Below, piece after piece: positions 188 through 25,639 of a DNA stretch of 25,639 nucleotides. Every line of letters begins with the position of its first letter. Within the stretch, counting starts at the first letter, position 1. Source of the DNA: a virus; IMG/VR virus record IMGVR_UViG_3300034104_002724, positions 1 to 25,639 of that record, one strand, 5' to 3'. A model generated the notes under the pieces. It did no database searches. It saw only the letters and a program-made list of their open reading frames with translations, and had not been told where the DNA came from. The translations under genes and the position numbers were made by a program.

Positions 188-913
188 ATGAATATAGATA
201 CAAATGTTTATATAAAGCACGAAAGCCCCACTTTTGGCAATACCTTGTTAGGTGCAGTGCCTTTGGTGTCGGAAGTGTATTTAATGGACTGTATTTTTTT
301 AATGAAGCATTACCCTGATAAATACTTCGATTTGGCTGTAGTTGACCCACCTTATGGAATTGGTGAGGATGGTGAAAAAAACCATAGCCGTTCAAAACAA
401 GCAAAAGCTAAAGAATACACTCCTAAAAATTGGGATAAAGAACCGCCACCACTTGAATACTTTTATGAGTTGTTTAGAGTTTCTAAAAATCAAATTGTTT
501 GGGGTGCAAATCACTTTATTAGCCGAATGCCCTATGATAGTAGTTGTTGGATAATTTGGGATAAAGAAAATGGCGAAAATGATTTTGCTGATTGTGAAAT
601 GGCTTGGGCTTCATTTGGAACTGCGGTAAGACGTTTTAAATTTCGCTGGGCTGGAATGTTACAAGGCAATATGAAAGATAAAGAAATTAGAATGCACCCA
701 ACCCAAAAGCCTGTGGCATTGTATGACTTTATTTATTCAAGATATGCAACTGAAGGAATGAAAGTTTTAGATACTCACTTGGGTAGTGGTTCAAGTCGAA
801 TAAGTGCCAATAAAAATAAATTACACTTTGTCGGTTGTGAAATTGATGAGGAATATTTTAACAAACAAAATAAAAGATATGAGGAATTTGTCAGTCAGGC
901 TCGTTTGTTTTAG
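188..913 (+). CDS. DNA methyltransferase, beta class (N6-adenine or N4-cytosine)
   Basis: The 241-aa product has the beta-class motif order. Catalytic motif IV DPPY is at residues 53-56, HPTQKP at 170-175, SAM-binding motif I (DTHLGSGSS) at about 195-203, and motif II CEID at 217-220. The expected reaction is transfer of a methyl group from SAM to an exocyclic amino group in DNA. Target specificity cannot be read from the sequence. No restriction endonuclease is adjacent, which fits an orphan phage anti-restriction methylase. The first 30 or so residues do not look like family sequence, and they overlap a repeat-like element at 247-261. GTG at 275 or ATG at 284 could be the true start, giving a protein that begins near MDCIFLMKHYPDKYFDL. 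The gene runs opposite to the late operon. Confidence 0.9.
   Translation: MNIDTNVYIKHESPTFGNTLLGAVPLVSEVYLMDCIFLMKHYPDKYFDLAVVDPPYGIGEDGEKNHSRSKQAKAKEYTPKNWDKEPPPLEYFYELFRVSKNQIVWGANHFISRMPYDSSCWIIWDKENGENDFADCEMAWASFGTAVRRFKFRWAGMLQGNMKDKEIRMHPTQKPVALYDFIYSRYATEGMKVLDTHLGSGSSRISANKNKLHFVGCEIDEEYFNKQNKRYEEFVSQARLF
247..261 (+). repeat. Inverted repeat arm, GTTAGGTGCAGTGCC (pairs with 924-938)
   Basis: This 15-mer is the reverse complement of 924-938 with a single mismatch. Its first seven bases, GTTAGGT, fit the GTTRRRY consensus of an integron attC right-hand core site. It sits inside the annotated start of the methyltransferase and would precede the alternative starts at 275 and 284. It is either a cassette boundary or an arm of an unnamed inverted-repeat element. 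Confidence 0.5.
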
Positions 914-19168: not shown

Positions 19169-20341
19169 TTAAACAACTCGGTACTTACCACTTGTATTAT
19201 GCGGCAATTTCATTAAGCCAACGTATCGAGCTGCATCTAAACTATGGTTGTTAAAGTCAATAGGTACATTTAAAATCTTACCTGCTGCATCTACTTTCCA
19301 CTTATAGCTTTTAACCTCTTTTCTCAAACCATGGCTATTTTGAGTAATTCTTAATGGGTATCGTTTTAATGTGTCAATACCTAACTTAATACTATCAGCT
19401 CCTTTTGTTACAGGGAATATTCGATGCCCAAATAAACCAATCTCTTTTATAGATTTTGGTTCACTACTATCTGCATAAATTTCTCTTGAGTGCTTTATTT
19501 TATTTGACTTAATTCTATCGGATATTTCTGGATTTGTTAATCCTTGTTCATAAATTGCTTCATCTAAGTAAACTTCATTATCTAACTTGTACAAATCAAT
19601 TAAGCTGGTAGGGTCGTTTGTAAAGCCAAAATCTAAACCACTACCAATATATTTTGCTGCATCTGGCACACAATTAACAATACTGTAGTTACGATAAATT
19701 AACCCTTCAATCTTTCCTGTTAACCCTCTTGCATAAACCTTCCATAATTCATAATCAGTATCTTTTAATGCTTCAATTTTGTTTCTAATCTTATTATCTA
19801 AAAACGGATTGTGCCTGTGGTCAGAAATAAACAGTTGTACATTCGGTTGCCCAATAACATTTTCATGCACCCAAAACTCCTCACTTGGGTTATAGTCAAC
19901 AAAACTTCTTACCCTTGTTCTTAATTGAATTTGTAGATAAATACTATAAGGAATGCCATTAGCTTCATTAAAAAAAGAGTAATCCCTTTTACCACTTTTT
20001 GCATCCTGTTCATTATCGTAGGAGTTAAACTCAATTATTGAGTTTGTTTTAGTCTTAAATATTCTATCAGTCTTATTATAAGTATCGATATTTTGTTTAA
20101 AAAATTCAGTTGTTTCAACAATATTCAATGCATCTCTCAATGCACCTACTTTTAAATTGGGTATATCTTGCCCGACTACAGTAATAATTTTATTTTCTTG
20201 GGTACATGCAATAAAAAATAAGACTTGCAGAATACTGTAAGTCTTACCAGAACTTGTACCCCCTTGATTAACTACAATATCAGCTTTGCAATTGTAATTC
20301 CAATAAAATACATCGCTAACATCTATTTCACAGCTTAACAT
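19169..20341 (-). CDS. terL: Terminase large subunit
   Basis: This 390-aa protein has the packaging ATPase motifs: Walker A GGTSSGKT at 27-34 and Walker B-like YSFFNEAN at 121-128 with catalytic E126. The nuclease domain carries GLDFGFTNDP with D237, YADSSEP with D291, and NHSLDAARY with D369. These acids form the metal site that cuts concatemeric DNA. TerL drives ATP-powered DNA translocation through the portal. Its start overlaps the small terminase by 14 bp. The length is slightly below many TerL proteins, but all key motifs are present. The packaging mode (cos or pac) cannot be read from the window. Confidence 0.95.
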   Translation of the reverse strand: MLSCEIDVSDVFYWNYNCKADIVVNQGGTSSGKTYSILQVLFFIACTQENKIITVVGQDIPNLKVGALRDALNIVETTEFFKQNIDTYNKTDRIFKTKTNSIIEFNSYDNEQDAKSGKRDYSFFNEANGIPYSIYLQIQLRTRVRSFVDYNPSEEFWVHENVIGQPNVQLFISDHRHNPFLDNKIRNKIEALKDTDYELWKVYARGLTGKIEGLIYRNYSIVNCVPDAAKYIGSGLDFGFTNDPTSLIDLYKLDNEVYLDEAIYEQGLTNPEISDRIKSNKIKHSREIYADSSEPKSIKEIGLFGHRIFPVTKGADSIKLGIDTLKRYPLRITQNSHGLRKEVKSYKWKVDAAGKILNVPIDFNNHSLDAARYVGLMKLPHNTSGKYRVV

Positions 20342-20792: not shown

Positions 20793-21382
20793 AATTGTAT
20801 TGATTTACTTCCATTTCGGTAGCCTATAATATCATATTGATGTTGCTGCCAAAACTTGTTTACTAATTCTTGTTTATTCCAACCATATTCATTACCCTCT
20901 GCATGACTGCCATTATGAACGGCTAAGCAGTTTTTAACGTAGTACGTCTTAAATCCTGCTACCCATGCACGTTCAACATAGTCTAAATCAATAGGTCCAT
21001 ACGGAAACATGCTTTCATTAAACTCACCAATAGCATCTACAACTGCCTTACTGATAAGCCAATTGCTAATGATGTGTTCGCATGTTATTTCATTTCGTTC
21101 TCTATCTAATGAGCTTGCAACAATGCCAGCTTGTGGGTATAGTTGCAGTGCTTCAATCTTACTTAATAACCATCTATCGGGTTCAAGTATATCATTGGCA
21201 AGATATGCAATTGCTTCATAATCACCTTCATTAAAAACATCTAAACCCATGTTCATTGCATTAGCTATTCCTTCTTGATTTATTAGGATAACATCGGCAC
21301 TATAACCGCTACGCTTGAGTGTTTGCTCTAATATTTCAAGTGAACGGATGCCATAGATTAAACCAACGACTAATACTTTCAT
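20777..21382 (-). CDS. GT2-like (GT-A fold) glycosyltransferase
   Basis: This 201-aa protein starts with a strand (KVLVVGLIYG). AYLANDILEPDRWL at 59-72 has N63-D64 in the place of the DXD metal and nucleotide-sugar motif. IDLDYVERAW at 131-140 and AVHNGS at 154-159 match GT2 acceptor and catalytic blocks. It is shorter than many GT2 enzymes, so the nucleotide-binding half may be reduced. It probably transfers a sugar from a nucleotide donor; donor and acceptor are unknown. Start overlaps the preceding stop in TAATG, and its end overlaps terS by 16 bp. Confidence 0.7.
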   Translation of the reverse strand: MKVLVVGLIYGIRSLEILEQTLKRSGYSADVILINQEGIANAMNMGLDVFNEGDYEAIAYLANDILEPDRWLLSKIEALQLYPQAGIVASSLDRERNEITCEHIISNWLISKAVVDAIGEFNESMFPYGPIDLDYVERAWVAGFKTYYVKNCLAVHNGSHAEGNEYGWNKQELVNKFWQQHQYDIIGYRNGSKSIQLCHQK

Positions 21383-21861
21383 TATCTTATATTTTCGCCG
21401 ATGTCCTTAGCAGGTACACCAGCATATTTACGATAGGGTTGTAATATTGTCTTCTTACCTATGAATGCAGAAGCTCCAATCATGCAACCTTGTGGTACAA
21501 TTACCTTTTGGTGAATTACAGCATTTAAGCCTATGTTGCAATTGCTTTTTATAACTGAATGCCCACCAACTTTAGCACCACAACTTAATACAACATTATC
21601 CCACAACTCGGAATCATGCCCAACGTGTGAATGCTTCATTAAATAAGAACCTGGTCCTATCAATGTTGTACCTGTAACACCCGCATCAACTGTTACCAAT
21701 CCTGTTAATCTTGAACCTGCACCAATCCTTACACCTTTACTTTCTTCTTCATGTCCTTTCCATTCAGCAGGTGCACCAATAATACAGTAAGGACCTATAT
21801 AACAATCTTCTTCGATTATCACATTAGGATATATTATTGCTGTTGGATGTATGTAAGTCAT
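21382..21861 (-). CDS. Left-handed beta-helix acyltransferase-like protein (LpxA-like)
   Basis: This 159-aa protein starts YIHPTAIIYPNVIIEE and has hexapeptide repeats almost throughout (IGPYCIIGA, IGAGSRL, IGLNAVI, IGASAFIG). KHSHVGHD near 76-83 places H82 where LpxA has its catalytic His, and VGGHSVI follows as in LpxA. It lacks the C-terminal helical domain of LpxA, which is about 100 residues longer. Likely function is acyl transfer to a sugar or nucleotide sugar, perhaps for a glycan made by the adjacent glycosyltransferases. Its presence inside a packaging/structural operon is unusual. Substrate is unknown. Confidence 0.75.
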   Translation of the reverse strand: MTYIHPTAIIYPNVIIEEDCYIGPYCIIGAPAEWKGHEEESKGVRIGAGSRLTGLVTVDAGVTGTTLIGPGSYLMKHSHVGHDSELWDNVVLSCGAKVGGHSVIKSNCNIGLNAVIHQKVIVPQGCMIGASAFIGKKTILQPYRKYAGVPAKDIGENIR

Positions 21862-22018
21862 CTTTGTATAATTTATAAAGGTTTACTAAAAATTCACACA
21901 CACATGCAGGGCATCTTCTGTTGTAGTTGTAGTGTGGCTCTTTTAATCGGTACACTTCCAAAAGTTCATTTTGCACATCATCCCAAAAGTTCACCAGCTC
22001 ACCACTATTGACAATCAT
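21824..22018 (-). CDS. Small CxxC protein of unknown function
   Basis: From ATG at 22018, 13 nt after the glycosyltransferase stop, a 64-aa frame encodes MIVNSGELVNFWDDVQNELL. It continues with RRCPACVCEF, a CPxC-type metal-binding or redox pair, and a basic end. A longer start at 22129 is possible but would overlap the preceding gene by almost 100 bp with a shadow-like sequence, so I prefer 22018. Its 3' end overlaps the LpxA-like gene by 38 bp. No family was recognised. It may be a cofactor-binding or regulatory peptide. Confidence 0.5.
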   Translation of the reverse strand: MIVNSGELVNFWDDVQNELLEVYRLKEPHYNYNRRCPACVCEFLVNLYKLYKDDLHTSNSNNIS

Positions 22019-22031
22019 ATCATGGTAGTGC

Positions 22032-23033
22032 TTATGCTTCAATAAGGTTTTTAAATGCGGCTGCTCGTTGTTCGTTAATGGCTGTAAAGTTGTACCTTTC
22101 TTTTGCCCACTCGTATAGTTTTTCGCCATAATCTATTCTTGCTTGTTTATTCAAAGTTAAGAATTTTATATGTTTAAACCAATCAGATTGATTTTTTGCA
22201 AACAATACCGGGCAATCAACATCTACATTGTATGGTGCAACATCACTAACAACGCAAGGTATTTTTTTACTTGCAGCTTCCAATATCTTTAAATTGCTTT
22301 TACAGGCATGCCAATTGCTTTGCTCTAAAGGTATAACCATAATATCAGCATGTTCATATAAAGTCATGTAGCTATTTGGTTTAGTACCATGGACTACTTT
22401 CCAATTTAATCGCCTGCCATCGGTAAATATATTTAGCATTCTATTCCATAAGTCTTTACTCACAGGGTCAGTATCAGTATAACCTCCTAATACCATTTGA
22501 ATGTTAGGCAGCTCACGTAGCTTTTTAACAGGATTTCTTAGGATACCTAAATCATTTAAGTGAGTTGAACCACCTGCCCAAAAAACTCTTACAAATTCAC
22601 TTTCTTGCTTGGTTAGTGTATATTGGTGTTCACCCAATGGAATAGCATTAGGTAGTACTATTGCGTTGCTATTATATTTCTTTACTTTATCAGCTATTAA
22701 TTGGTTTGTGCAGGTAACTAAATCAGCATGTTGAATGTTGTTTAATACCCTTGCTTTTTGCCTGTGGTAATGAAAATGTAAAGGGTGATTGTGTGGCAAT
22801 TCCCAATCATCATCCAAATCCATTACTACCTTAAAATGTTTCTTTACCTCATCCCAACCATTGTCAATATGGCAAAAACGATTGTAAGTAATTATCTGAA
22901 AGTTATCTTCTAAAATATCGGGCGTAATAAAGTTTGTTACATGGCAATAGCTATCAGGAATAAACCCTAATGGAAGCATTACCCGATGCCAACCACAACC
23001 GCTTACCGCTTCAGTTAATCCTAATATTCTCAT
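22032..23033 (-). CDS. GT4-like (GT-B fold) glycosyltransferase
   Basis: This 333-aa protein begins MRILGLTEAVSGCGWHRVML, with the Gly-rich N-terminal loop of GT-B enzymes. FWAGGSTHLNDLG near 151 starts the second Rossmann domain. HADIMVIPLEQSNWHACKSN and LKILEAASKKIPCVVSDV match the donor-binding block (E plus small residues). Such enzymes build glycans using nucleotide sugars. The start overlaps the stop of the small membrane protein (ATGA). Together with the GT2-like and LpxA-like genes it forms a small glycan-modification set in this phage. Acceptor is unknown: host surface, virion or DNA are all possible. Confidence 0.8.
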   Translation of the reverse strand: MRILGLTEAVSGCGWHRVMLPLGFIPDSYCHVTNFITPDILEDNFQIITYNRFCHIDNGWDEVKKHFKVVMDLDDDWELPHNHPLHFHYHRQKARVLNNIQHADLVTCTNQLIADKVKKYNSNAIVLPNAIPLGEHQYTLTKQESEFVRVFWAGGSTHLNDLGILRNPVKKLRELPNIQMVLGGYTDTDPVSKDLWNRMLNIFTDGRRLNWKVVHGTKPNSYMTLYEHADIMVIPLEQSNWHACKSNLKILEAASKKIPCVVSDVAPYNVDVDCPVLFAKNQSDWFKHIKFLTLNKQARIDYGEKLYEWAKERYNFTAINEQRAAAFKNLIEA

Positions 23034-24143: not shown

Positions 24144-24509
24144 CTAAGGTAAACGTTTTTTTAGAATATCCAAAACATCTTGAGCATTGTAAGCAGTTTC
24201 AATAATTATACCAGCAGTGACCCATAATTGATTTAATGCTTTTTGTTTTGGTGAAATAGTGCCGTTTGGCATTTTAAGCTCGAGATACCAGCCTGGTAAA
24301 GGTAGTTCAAAACGAAAGTCATGCACTCCAGAAAGCACACCCATTGCATGAAGTTTAAGCCTAATTGCATCATTTGTTGCACTTTCATTGGGTATGTGAA
24401 AGAAAAAATGCCTTAAATGTGGGTAGTTGGCGTTAATGTAACGATAAGTTGCTGCTGTAAATTGATCTTCATTTTGGTAAATGGTGGTTAAAAATTGCTG
24501 TTGTGTCAT
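24144..24509 (-). CDS. VRR-NUC domain nuclease
   Basis: This 121-aa protein matches VRR-NUC, a PD-(D/E)xK family. HIPNES at 38-43, MGVLSGVHDF at 56-65 with D64, and YLELKMPNG with E77 and K79 form the active-site core; ISPKQK at 85-90 follows. The usual Pro before the catalytic Asp is His here. VRR-NUC proteins in phages cut branched or recombination DNA during replication. Position just downstream of the helicase and iteron region supports a replication role. It is a single-domain protein and the length is typical. Confidence 0.85.
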   Translation of the reverse strand: MTQQQFLTTIYQNEDQFTAATYRYINANYPHLRHFFFHIPNESATNDAIRLKLHAMGVLSGVHDFRFELPLPGWYLELKMPNGTISPKQKALNQLWVTAGIIIETAYNAQDVLDILKKRLP

Positions 24510-24828
24510 AAAGTTTTATATTTTACAGGATAATAAAATTACGTAAGTTACCAAAGTTACGTAACCAAATTTTTTTGGTAACCTATAACTGTTTGATAAT
24601 CAACAAGGTTACTAAGTTACTAAAGTTACGAGTGTTTCCCCTATACTCTATATAGGTTAAATTTACATTTTCCTTTTACGTTTAATAATTATTACCCTTT
24701 TATTCTTTTATTACTATTTATATACTAATAGTATATTTATTAGTAACTTAGTAACTTAATTGATTATTAAAGAGTTATAAAAATAAAATTGGTAACTTTT
24801 TAGTAACCAGTTGGTAACTTTAGTAACT
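24510..24828. repeat. Iteron-rich non-coding region, candidate origin or operator
   Basis: This 319-bp gap has no gene. It holds 13 copies of GTTAC or its complement GTAAC. The left cluster starts at 24547, 24556, 24561, 24578, 24608, 24616 and 24625. The right cluster starts at 24743, 24751, 24792, 24803, 24814 and 24823, all GTAAC, with spacings of 8-11 bp or 41 bp. The longer form is AAGTTAC on the left and GTAACTT on the right, so the arms face each other. Between them, 24640-24740 is A/T-rich and contains TATACT/AGTATA hairpin arms. A perfect 10-bp palindrome GTTACGTAAC lies at 24556-24565. On the - strand, 24552-24559 reads TAACTTTG, matching the Bacteroidota -7 box TAnnTTTG. It could be a replication origin, a promoter with operators, or both. 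Confidence 0.7.
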
Positions 24829-25639
24829 TTAAAAGGGTGTTGCTGTCATAAATTGCTTATACTTAACAGTGATATTGTTTACTTTTTTTACATAATCCTT
24901 CACAAACTCAACATTATTTTTTAAACCATAATCTTTTAGAGCATCGTTAATTCGTTTGCTCGATGGCTGGTAAGGCTTAGGTGTGTTTGCTTCAACATAA
25001 TAACGTTCTAAATCTAATTTAAAAGCCTCATTAGAAACTTCTACACGTTGTAGCCAACTTTCCCAATATTCAGCAATTAAACCAACGATAACGCTTCCAT
25101 AAGTTTGTTCAAACTGTTTAGCCCAACCAGTAGTTGTAAGAGATGGTGCAGTAAGTTTTCTATTAGCCTTTAACCATTCCTGTATGCTTTCAGCAATAAA
25201 GTTATCAAAGCCAGCATAATCTTCAACACTCCAACCTTTCGGGAAGTGGCAGCCGAAATGAACATCTAATCCACCAACATTGGTAAAAAAGTTGTTAAAC
25301 TCAATTGGAATTATTCTACGCTTTAGTCCCCCATCTGAAATTTCATAACTAAAGTTTGTTTGCACCAAAAATTTAGGAGCTTCCTCATTACTAATTTCAA
25401 CTTCATCTTTAAAAAGTTTCTTCCAAATAAAACTACCCGTTGATGGCTCTTTTAAAAATGCAAAATCAAAATTTTTCGGCACGTCTGAAATACAAAAAAT
25501 CTTTTGGCCATTCCAAGACTGAAAGAACTTTTCATCAAATTTAGTTTGGCTTCCAGGCTTTGAAGTGTAGGTAGTTGTTAAACGCAAAAGGCTGCTAAAC
25601 ACATTTTTACCAGATCCTCCGCCGTCTTTTGGGTTTTCG
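24829..25639 (-). CDS. SF3 helicase, D5/P4 primase-helicase-like (5' end outside window)
   Basis: The frame is open to the right edge, so this is the C-terminal part of a longer protein. The first visible residues include GGGSGKNVF, a Walker A motif. FCISDVP is in the place of Walker B, FLVQTNF is the SF3 sensor-like motif, and GGLKRRIIPIEF supplies the arginine finger. Such hexameric helicases unwind origins for phage replication, often fused to an N-terminal primase domain (not visible here). Walker A has Asn after Lys where Ser or Thr is most common. The frame continues upstream of the GTG at 25602 without a stop, so that codon is not the start. The gene ends at the edge of the iteron region. 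Confidence 0.85.
   Translation of the reverse strand, partial: ENPKDGGGSGKNVFSSLLRLTTTYTSKPGSQTKFDEKFFQSWNGQKIFCISDVPKNFDFAFLKEPSTGSFIWKKLFKDEVEISNEEAPKFLVQTNFSYEISDGGLKRRIIPIEFNNFFTNVGGLDVHFGCHFPKGWSVEDYAGFDNFIAESIQEWLKANRKLTAPSLTTTGWAKQFEQTYGSVIVGLIAEYWESWLQRVEVSNEAFKLDLERYYVEANTPKPYQPSSKRINDALKDYGLKNNVEFVKDYVKKVNNITVKYKQFMTATPF

Follow-up and report, generated by a model that had tools for sequence, protein, structure and literature searches.

A probable replication origin with changing iterons beside a PrimPol/SF3-type helicase gene in tailed phages of Bacteroidota

An iteron array around an AT-rich core

Does a group of short repeats next to a phage helicase gene mark the start site of DNA replication, or does it rather control the genes on its two sides? 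The window, that is, the whole stretch of 25,639 nucleotides analysed here, is a 25.6-kb phage fragment which carries genes for the terminase large subunit (positions 19169-20341, from the gene list and profile matches), the portal, the tape measure, other structural proteins and an endolysin; it was therefore assigned to a tailed phage and not to a satellite. The lack of a capsid, portal and tail set of its own, by which a PICI element is recognized, was not observed among the window genes. At the opposite end of the fragment, a gene at 188-913 (+) resembles DNA N6-adenine/N4-cytosine methyltransferases (PF01555, E 2e-15). Between the terminase and the replication genes, the region 21382-23033 (-) holds a glycosyltransferase-like gene (weak Pfam matches) and a gene with a hexapeptide-repeat-like sequence.

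Thirteen GTTAC/GTAAC words were found at 24547-24827, in two groups around an AT-rich core. This density, already reported by an earlier note on this DNA as thirteen words in about 290 bp, was borne out: dinucleotide shuffles of the array region gave a mean of 1.7 words and a maximum of 8, thirteen being reached in 0 of 5000, and any other 296-bp stretch of the window contains at most four. On the distal side, the outer cluster (24547-24582) consists of GTTAC at 24547 and 24556 (+) and GTAAC at 24561 and 24578 (-), and includes the palindrome GTTACGTAAC (24556-24565); the inner iterons (24608-24629, (+)) are three GTTAC words which start at 24608, 24616 and 24625, 8-9 bp apart. They are followed by the core (24630-24742), a candidate melting region of 113 bp with a GC content of 20.4% against 33.8% for the window, below 99.5% of the 113-bp stretches, in agreement with the A/T-rich centre noted before. 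On the helicase side, the inner pair of GTAAC words (24743-24755, (-)), starting at 24743 and 24751, 8 bp apart, precedes an outer cluster (24792-24827, (-)) with GTAAC at 24792, 24803, 24814 and 24823. The stop codon of the helicase gene (24829-24831) lies one base past this last iteron.

Two sites resembling the consensus WATCAANNNNTTR of the host protein IHF accompany the iterons: an exact copy, TATCAAACAGTTA, at 24586-24598 (-), and a copy with one mismatch, TATTAAAGAGTTA, at 24765-24777 (+), between the outer and inner iterons. Together with the inner iterons, they make up a 40-nt inverted repeat (24584-24779; arms 24584-24623 and 24740-24779, 88% complementary), which sets the symmetry of the candidate origin.

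The clusters had also been described as facing each other with helical-turn spacing. The orientation holds for the inner sites and for the helicase side, where all six words are on the minus strand, but not for the words at 24561 and 24578, which are inverted (two of the seven left-hand words). As for the spacing, the intervals in the window (9, 5, 17, 30, 8, 9, 118, 8, 41, 11, 11 and 9 bp) approximate a helical turn only roughly; the periodicity appeared when 43 arrays were pooled: successive spacings of 14-62 bp then showed a period of 10.0-10.5 bp (R 0.27, at about the 99.9% level of uniform nulls). GC skew was dropped as evidence for an origin, since it is confounded by gene orientation.

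The array could also be a multi-site operator, at which a phage or host regulator bound to the repeats would control the helicase, the VRR-NUC-like gene and the late genes. It lies between two co-directional genes, the helicase gene and, on the distal side, the VRR-NUC-like gene (24144-24509, (-); phrog_824, E 4e-21), which also matches the Holliday junction resolvase phrog_5702 (E 3e-4) and whose homologue in L006, one of the related loci described below, gave a weak PF08774 match (E 0.03, below the cut-off). Moreover, 43 bp before the start codon of the VRR-NUC-like gene, an iteron is overlapped by a TAnnTTTG box on the correct strand (24552-24559, minus strand). The symmetry of the array about its AT-rich core and the presence of IHF-type sites speak against an operator. 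The box itself, in which the earlier note had seen a -7 element that might couple replication to late-operon expression, did not sustain that suggestion: the window contains 31 such matches, no TTG was found 19-23 bp upstream of the one at 24552-24559 to provide a -33 partner, and the box, which comes without a -33 element, is absent from most relatives. Its presence at the array is to be expected from the word AAAGTTA, of which it is a by-product.

Repeat arrays with AT-rich centres are also found at packaging (cos/pac) or partition sites, and a function of this kind was considered on that general ground. However, the terminase genes are 4-5 kb away, no ParA/ParB family match was obtained among the window genes scanned, and the array is linked to, and covaries with, the replicative helicase (see below). 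We regard a packaging or partition site as extremely improbable.

The adjoining helicase and the arrays of its relatives

The gene next to the array (24829-25639, (-)) runs off the window and encodes 269 residues of a PrimPol/SF3-type helicase, roughly the C-terminal third; relatives have about 820 residues, and the N-terminal half lies beyond the window edge. In full-length relatives, a PF09250 Prim-Pol domain (E 1e-12) is followed by a weak match to PF19263 (DUF5906, E 2e-4, below its cut-off). A Toprim primase domain of the P4 alpha type was not observed: the relatives have the PF09250 Prim-Pol, a domain which the part of the gene inside the window does not reach. The helicase contains a Walker-type GGGSGKN motif. 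In an AlphaFold2 (AF2) model built from 44 relatives (mean pLDDT 84.7, around 95 for the last ~85 residues), the ATPase core is followed by a winged helix at residues ~185-265, with a helix at 203-216, the recognition helix at 227-240 and wing strands at 243-253 and 256-265. The wing codons (about residues 241-265; 24840-24914, (-)) were delimited from this model and from the covariation presented below; residue 252 of the window helicase is a lysine. The Foldseek matches in the PDB were SF3 helicases (AsfvPrimPol, the NrS-1 PrimPol CTR, the SaPI5 primase-helicase 7ola, papillomavirus E1 and poxvirus E5/D5). A PDB sequence search with the helicase profile gave matches at E 0.06 or worse, poxvirus D5/E5 among them. 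By its predicted fold, the protein belongs to the SF3 helicases; these structural neighbours and the Prim-Pol domain of the full-length relatives support the earlier identification of an adjoining SF3 replicative helicase.

Relatives were collected from scans of viral contigs and genomes, including Pedobacter and Mucilaginibacter prophages. Three of these prophages of the family reside in cultured bacteria, Pedobacter cryoconitis (L077), Pedobacter agri (L078) and Mucilaginibacter lappiensis ATCC BAA-1855 (L081, which is the same phage as L013). Cultured phages yielded a single distant match (25% identity). One helicase of the set, prophage-like and 63% identical to that of the window (L079), comes from a Legionellaceae MAG record, which is probably a contig from Bacteroidota that was binned wrongly.

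About 40 related phage contigs have the same array layout at the homologous helicase, which supports the claim of a replication origin beside this gene; distinct site maps were obtained for 31 loci in a first set and 12 in a second. The shared plan is a mirror image (4+2|2+4) of about four outer sites and an inner pair 8-9 bp apart on each side of an AT-rich core; the cores have a median length of 117.5 bp and 21% GC, with a median of 6 and 5 sites per side. The L112 array has exactly this form, in facing orientation (------ / ++++++). In approximately one third of the relatives, no array was found within the sequence examined.

The word itself differs among relatives: GTTAC, CGTTAC, ATTACTAA, GGTGTC, GTGACA, TTTGTC, CCTAACC, GTACCAAA, GGTTACC, TGTGACA, TGTCCCGA, CCGTCC and others were found, each locus usually being strongly enriched in its own word (Poisson -log10 p commonly 8-19). 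Even with motor domains 93-96% identical, the word is CGTTAC in L008 and L010 and ATTACTAA in L006 and L009. According to the earlier note, it would speak against its reading if the motif array were not conserved by related phages. What is conserved is the layout, not the word; when GTTAC alone was searched, L005, L006, L007 and L009 seemed free of arrays although other words are present there, and with such a search the array would have looked unconserved.

Unlike the iteron words, the IHF consensus is conserved in sequence among these origins. Exact copies number 31 over the 43 origins, where 2.45 would be expected; most of them are placed 16-50 bp beyond the core, between the outer and inner iterons.

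Most relatives whose flanks are intact have the array directly downstream of the helicase. In L013, L079 and L080 it lies 0.7-1 kb downstream, in L110 and L112 about 3.1 kb upstream of the helicase stop, and in L019 and L021 about 7.3 kb upstream. The upstream arrays of L110 and L112 are near-perfect GGTTACA arrays; in L112, a 9-bp tandem repeat, CGCTACAA, which is possibly coding, is found as well, some 0.8-1 kb downstream. The helicases of L019 and L021 are 56-57% identical to that of the window, and GTACCAAA is the word common to their distant arrays. This shift of position relative to the genes, between 7.3 kb before and 1 kb after the helicase, also argues against an operator.

Covariation of the wing and the iteron word

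Distances between the motif matrices of the arrays were compared with distances between protein segments by Mantel tests. In the first 31 loci, the distance between motor domains did not predict the distance between words (r 0.11, p 0.19). In contrast, wing distance given motor distance did so (r 0.37, p 0.0002, the Mantel p values modelling phylogeny only partly), with a sliding peak at residues 249-260, and in the second set of 12 loci, wing and word were again correlated (r 0.48, p 0.0002). The recognition helix, considered as the main specificity element, was a weaker predictor than the wing (r 0.16 vs 0.37); in L010 and L006, its residues 227-241 are identical and the words are different. 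It is thus with the predicted C-terminal winged helix that the iteron word covaries, and this joint change suggests, at the level of sequence comparison, that the helicase itself reads the word. The fact that the word tracks the helicase wing, instead of being conserved, is a further argument against an operator; together with the symmetric layout and the moving position of the array, it makes that alternative, put forward in the earlier note, highly improbable.

Among 106 columns, residue 252 was the best predictor of the word (Fisher 3e-7), by a rule formulated post hoc, after the data had been viewed. With K or R at this position, 33 words had an intact GTNAC (GTNNC-type) core and none an A-type core; with other residues, the numbers were 0 and 6. 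All six words lacking one core G (ATTAC type) pair with T, S or V at 252. Furthermore, when the orientation of the word was set by a fixed rule, the base before the core was a purine in 14 cases and a pyrimidine in none for K252, and the ratio was 4:20 for R252 (p 3e-7). Five of the seven arrays found last fit the residue-252 rule and the sister loci L110 and L112 do not, a result which is not significant alone. L020 and L069 are also exceptions, and L076 and L099 are ambiguous. In the four misfits (L110, L112, L020 and L069), the arginine is followed, at the next position or the one after, by an acidic residue.

The wing alignments contain gaps in L045 and L046 and longer loops in some loci. 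The alignment register was used to number the wing residues, because counting back from a conserved Phe fails for the longer loops. L130 (5 sites) and the words of L018, L024 and L074 were too irregular and were left out of the base-by-base tests. The motor-domain tree has 16 changes of the residue and 15 of the word, 12 of which share a branch; under the null, the number of shared branches had a mean of 3.4 and a maximum of 9 in 2000.

Another protein, either a host initiator or another phage protein, could in principle read the origin, the covariation then reflecting the physical linkage between the 3' end of the helicase gene and the origin. The wing codons are indeed only ~50-100 bp from the first iteron and, since the two adjoin, close relatives can co-inherit wing and origin. 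Between L008 and L009, which have 96% identical motor domains and different words, DNA identity is 84-91% along the helicase gene, falls to 43-60% at its wing codons, is 48-66% across most of the origin and returns to 82-88% within the VRR-NUC-like gene. In L009 and L006, which share the same word, identity stays at 83-98%. As the drop is confined to the wing codons and the origin, the two diverge as one block, and linkage alone could yield such a block in close relatives.

Linkage is, however, insufficient overall, because the covariation extends to distant relatives (it holds at 40-60% protein identity and in the 12 shared branch changes) and because L019 and L021 fit the residue-252 rule with arrays 7.3 kb from the helicase. 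The VRR-NUC-like gene, on the other side of the origin, was used as a linkage control: it showed no correlation with the word (r 0.06, p 0.26, n 27), and was on this ground rejected both as the reader of the word and as the source of a linkage explanation. Likewise, the extreme C-terminus of the helicase gave r 0.00, though it is nearer to the array than the wing. The concern about co-inheritance is answered in part by this control and by L019 and L021. As to a host initiator, no DnaA-box pattern was found in the origins, a search with at most one mismatch giving one 1-mismatch match in each of only two origins. The locus also differs in this respect from an iteron plasmid of the Rep_3/RepA type, which combines a non-helicase winged-helix Rep with DnaA boxes; here, the initiator candidate is the helicase. 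A reader other than the helicase is, in our estimation, very unlikely.

Proposed mechanism and comparison with known systems

The region of GTTAC words is very probably, judging from its sequence, a start site of phage DNA replication, and we consider it likely that it works with the adjacent helicase in the following way. The protein, which combines PrimPol, SF3 helicase and C-terminal winged helix, would be its own origin-binding initiator. The winged helices of the subunits of one hexamer would occupy about six iterons on each side (the outer four and the inner pair), the iterons under each hexamer being phased by about one helical turn, and host IHF or HU at the WATCAANNNNTTR sites would bend the spacer between outer and inner iterons. 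Two hexamers facing each other across the core would melt its 113 AT-rich bp, after which bidirectional synthesis would start, primed by the helicase's own PrimPol domain. The wing, above all residue 252, would read the iteron edge, so that wing and iterons would change in step, in part through the exchange of a wing-plus-origin cassette.

The closest known counterpart is the rep-ori of the SaPI/PICI elements. There, two iteron sets flank an AT-rich region 3' of rep, an arrangement reported for no other bacterial replicon, and the sequence of the iterons varies from one element to another (Ubeda 2007, cited in PMC7581432; Fillol-Salom 2018, PMC6092414). Similarly, in the window and most relatives, the origin lies immediately 3' of the rep/primase-helicase gene (the exceptions being L013, L079 and L080, 0.7-1 kb downstream, and L019, L021, L110 and L112, upstream), with two iteron sets around an AT-rich region and a word that varies between elements; in addition, the SaPI5 Rep fold (7ola) is among the structural neighbours of the modelled window helicase. 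Unlike the SaPI/PICI satellites, the present origins belong to tailed phages with terminase, portal, tape measure and endolysin, infecting another host phylum (Bacteroidota). Their helicases have an AEP-type Prim-Pol N-terminus, their IHF-consensus sites are conserved, and some have the array kilobases upstream of rep. The best reading of the sequence comparison is that these origins work like the SaPI/PICI rep-ori, in tailed phages of Bacteroidota.

Other systems resemble the present one in part. The alpha protein of phage P4 unites a primase of the Toprim type, a helicase and a C-terminal winged-helix origin-binding domain in one polypeptide, which binds the ori repeats (PMC4234260). By description, this domain plan resembles that of the present system, which differs from P4 and its ori/crr by its AEP Prim-Pol, its repeat and its symmetric layout. 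The pRN1-type replication proteins show the same domain order as the present family, AEP primase, SF3 helicase and winged helix; for AEP-SF3-winged-helix initiators, assembly at a 3' stem-loop has been proposed and no iterons were found by the authors (PMC4234260). In the present family, in contrast, there are iteron arrays, and the stem-loop proposal does not fit. In the PLE satellites of Vibrio cholerae, the DNA-binding domain of the RepA_N initiator and the ori covary and swap as a module, which allows escape from an origin-directed phage nuclease (PMC8263062). Here too, initiator domain and origin change together, but the initiator is unrelated, the putative reader is the helicase itself, with the change located in one wing. 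By analogy with PLE, attack by origin-directed nucleases is a possible driver of word turnover in these phages.

A wider reading, whose chances we put somewhat below even, is that the origin code is rapidly rewritten, the single wing residue 252 of a self-loading PrimPol-helicase setting the edge bases of the iteron, with at least 12 joint switches by residue change and cassette replacement. In the same tentative reading, switching would be selected, by superinfection incompatibility, origin-directed nucleases or satellites, and the PICI-type origin, found as a switching origin in tailed phages, would therefore be a general phage design and not a PICI hallmark.

The SaPI/PICI-type origin, described as common to no other bacterial replicon, would in this manner be extended to tailed phages of Bacteroidota. 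The approximately 40 helicase-origin pairs constitute a natural data set that may reveal, residue by residue, the rule by which a winged-helix initiator recognizes its sites, and the prophages of the three cultured hosts offer laboratory systems for tests. They also raise an evolutionary question, namely why the address of the origin keeps changing while its architecture is kept.
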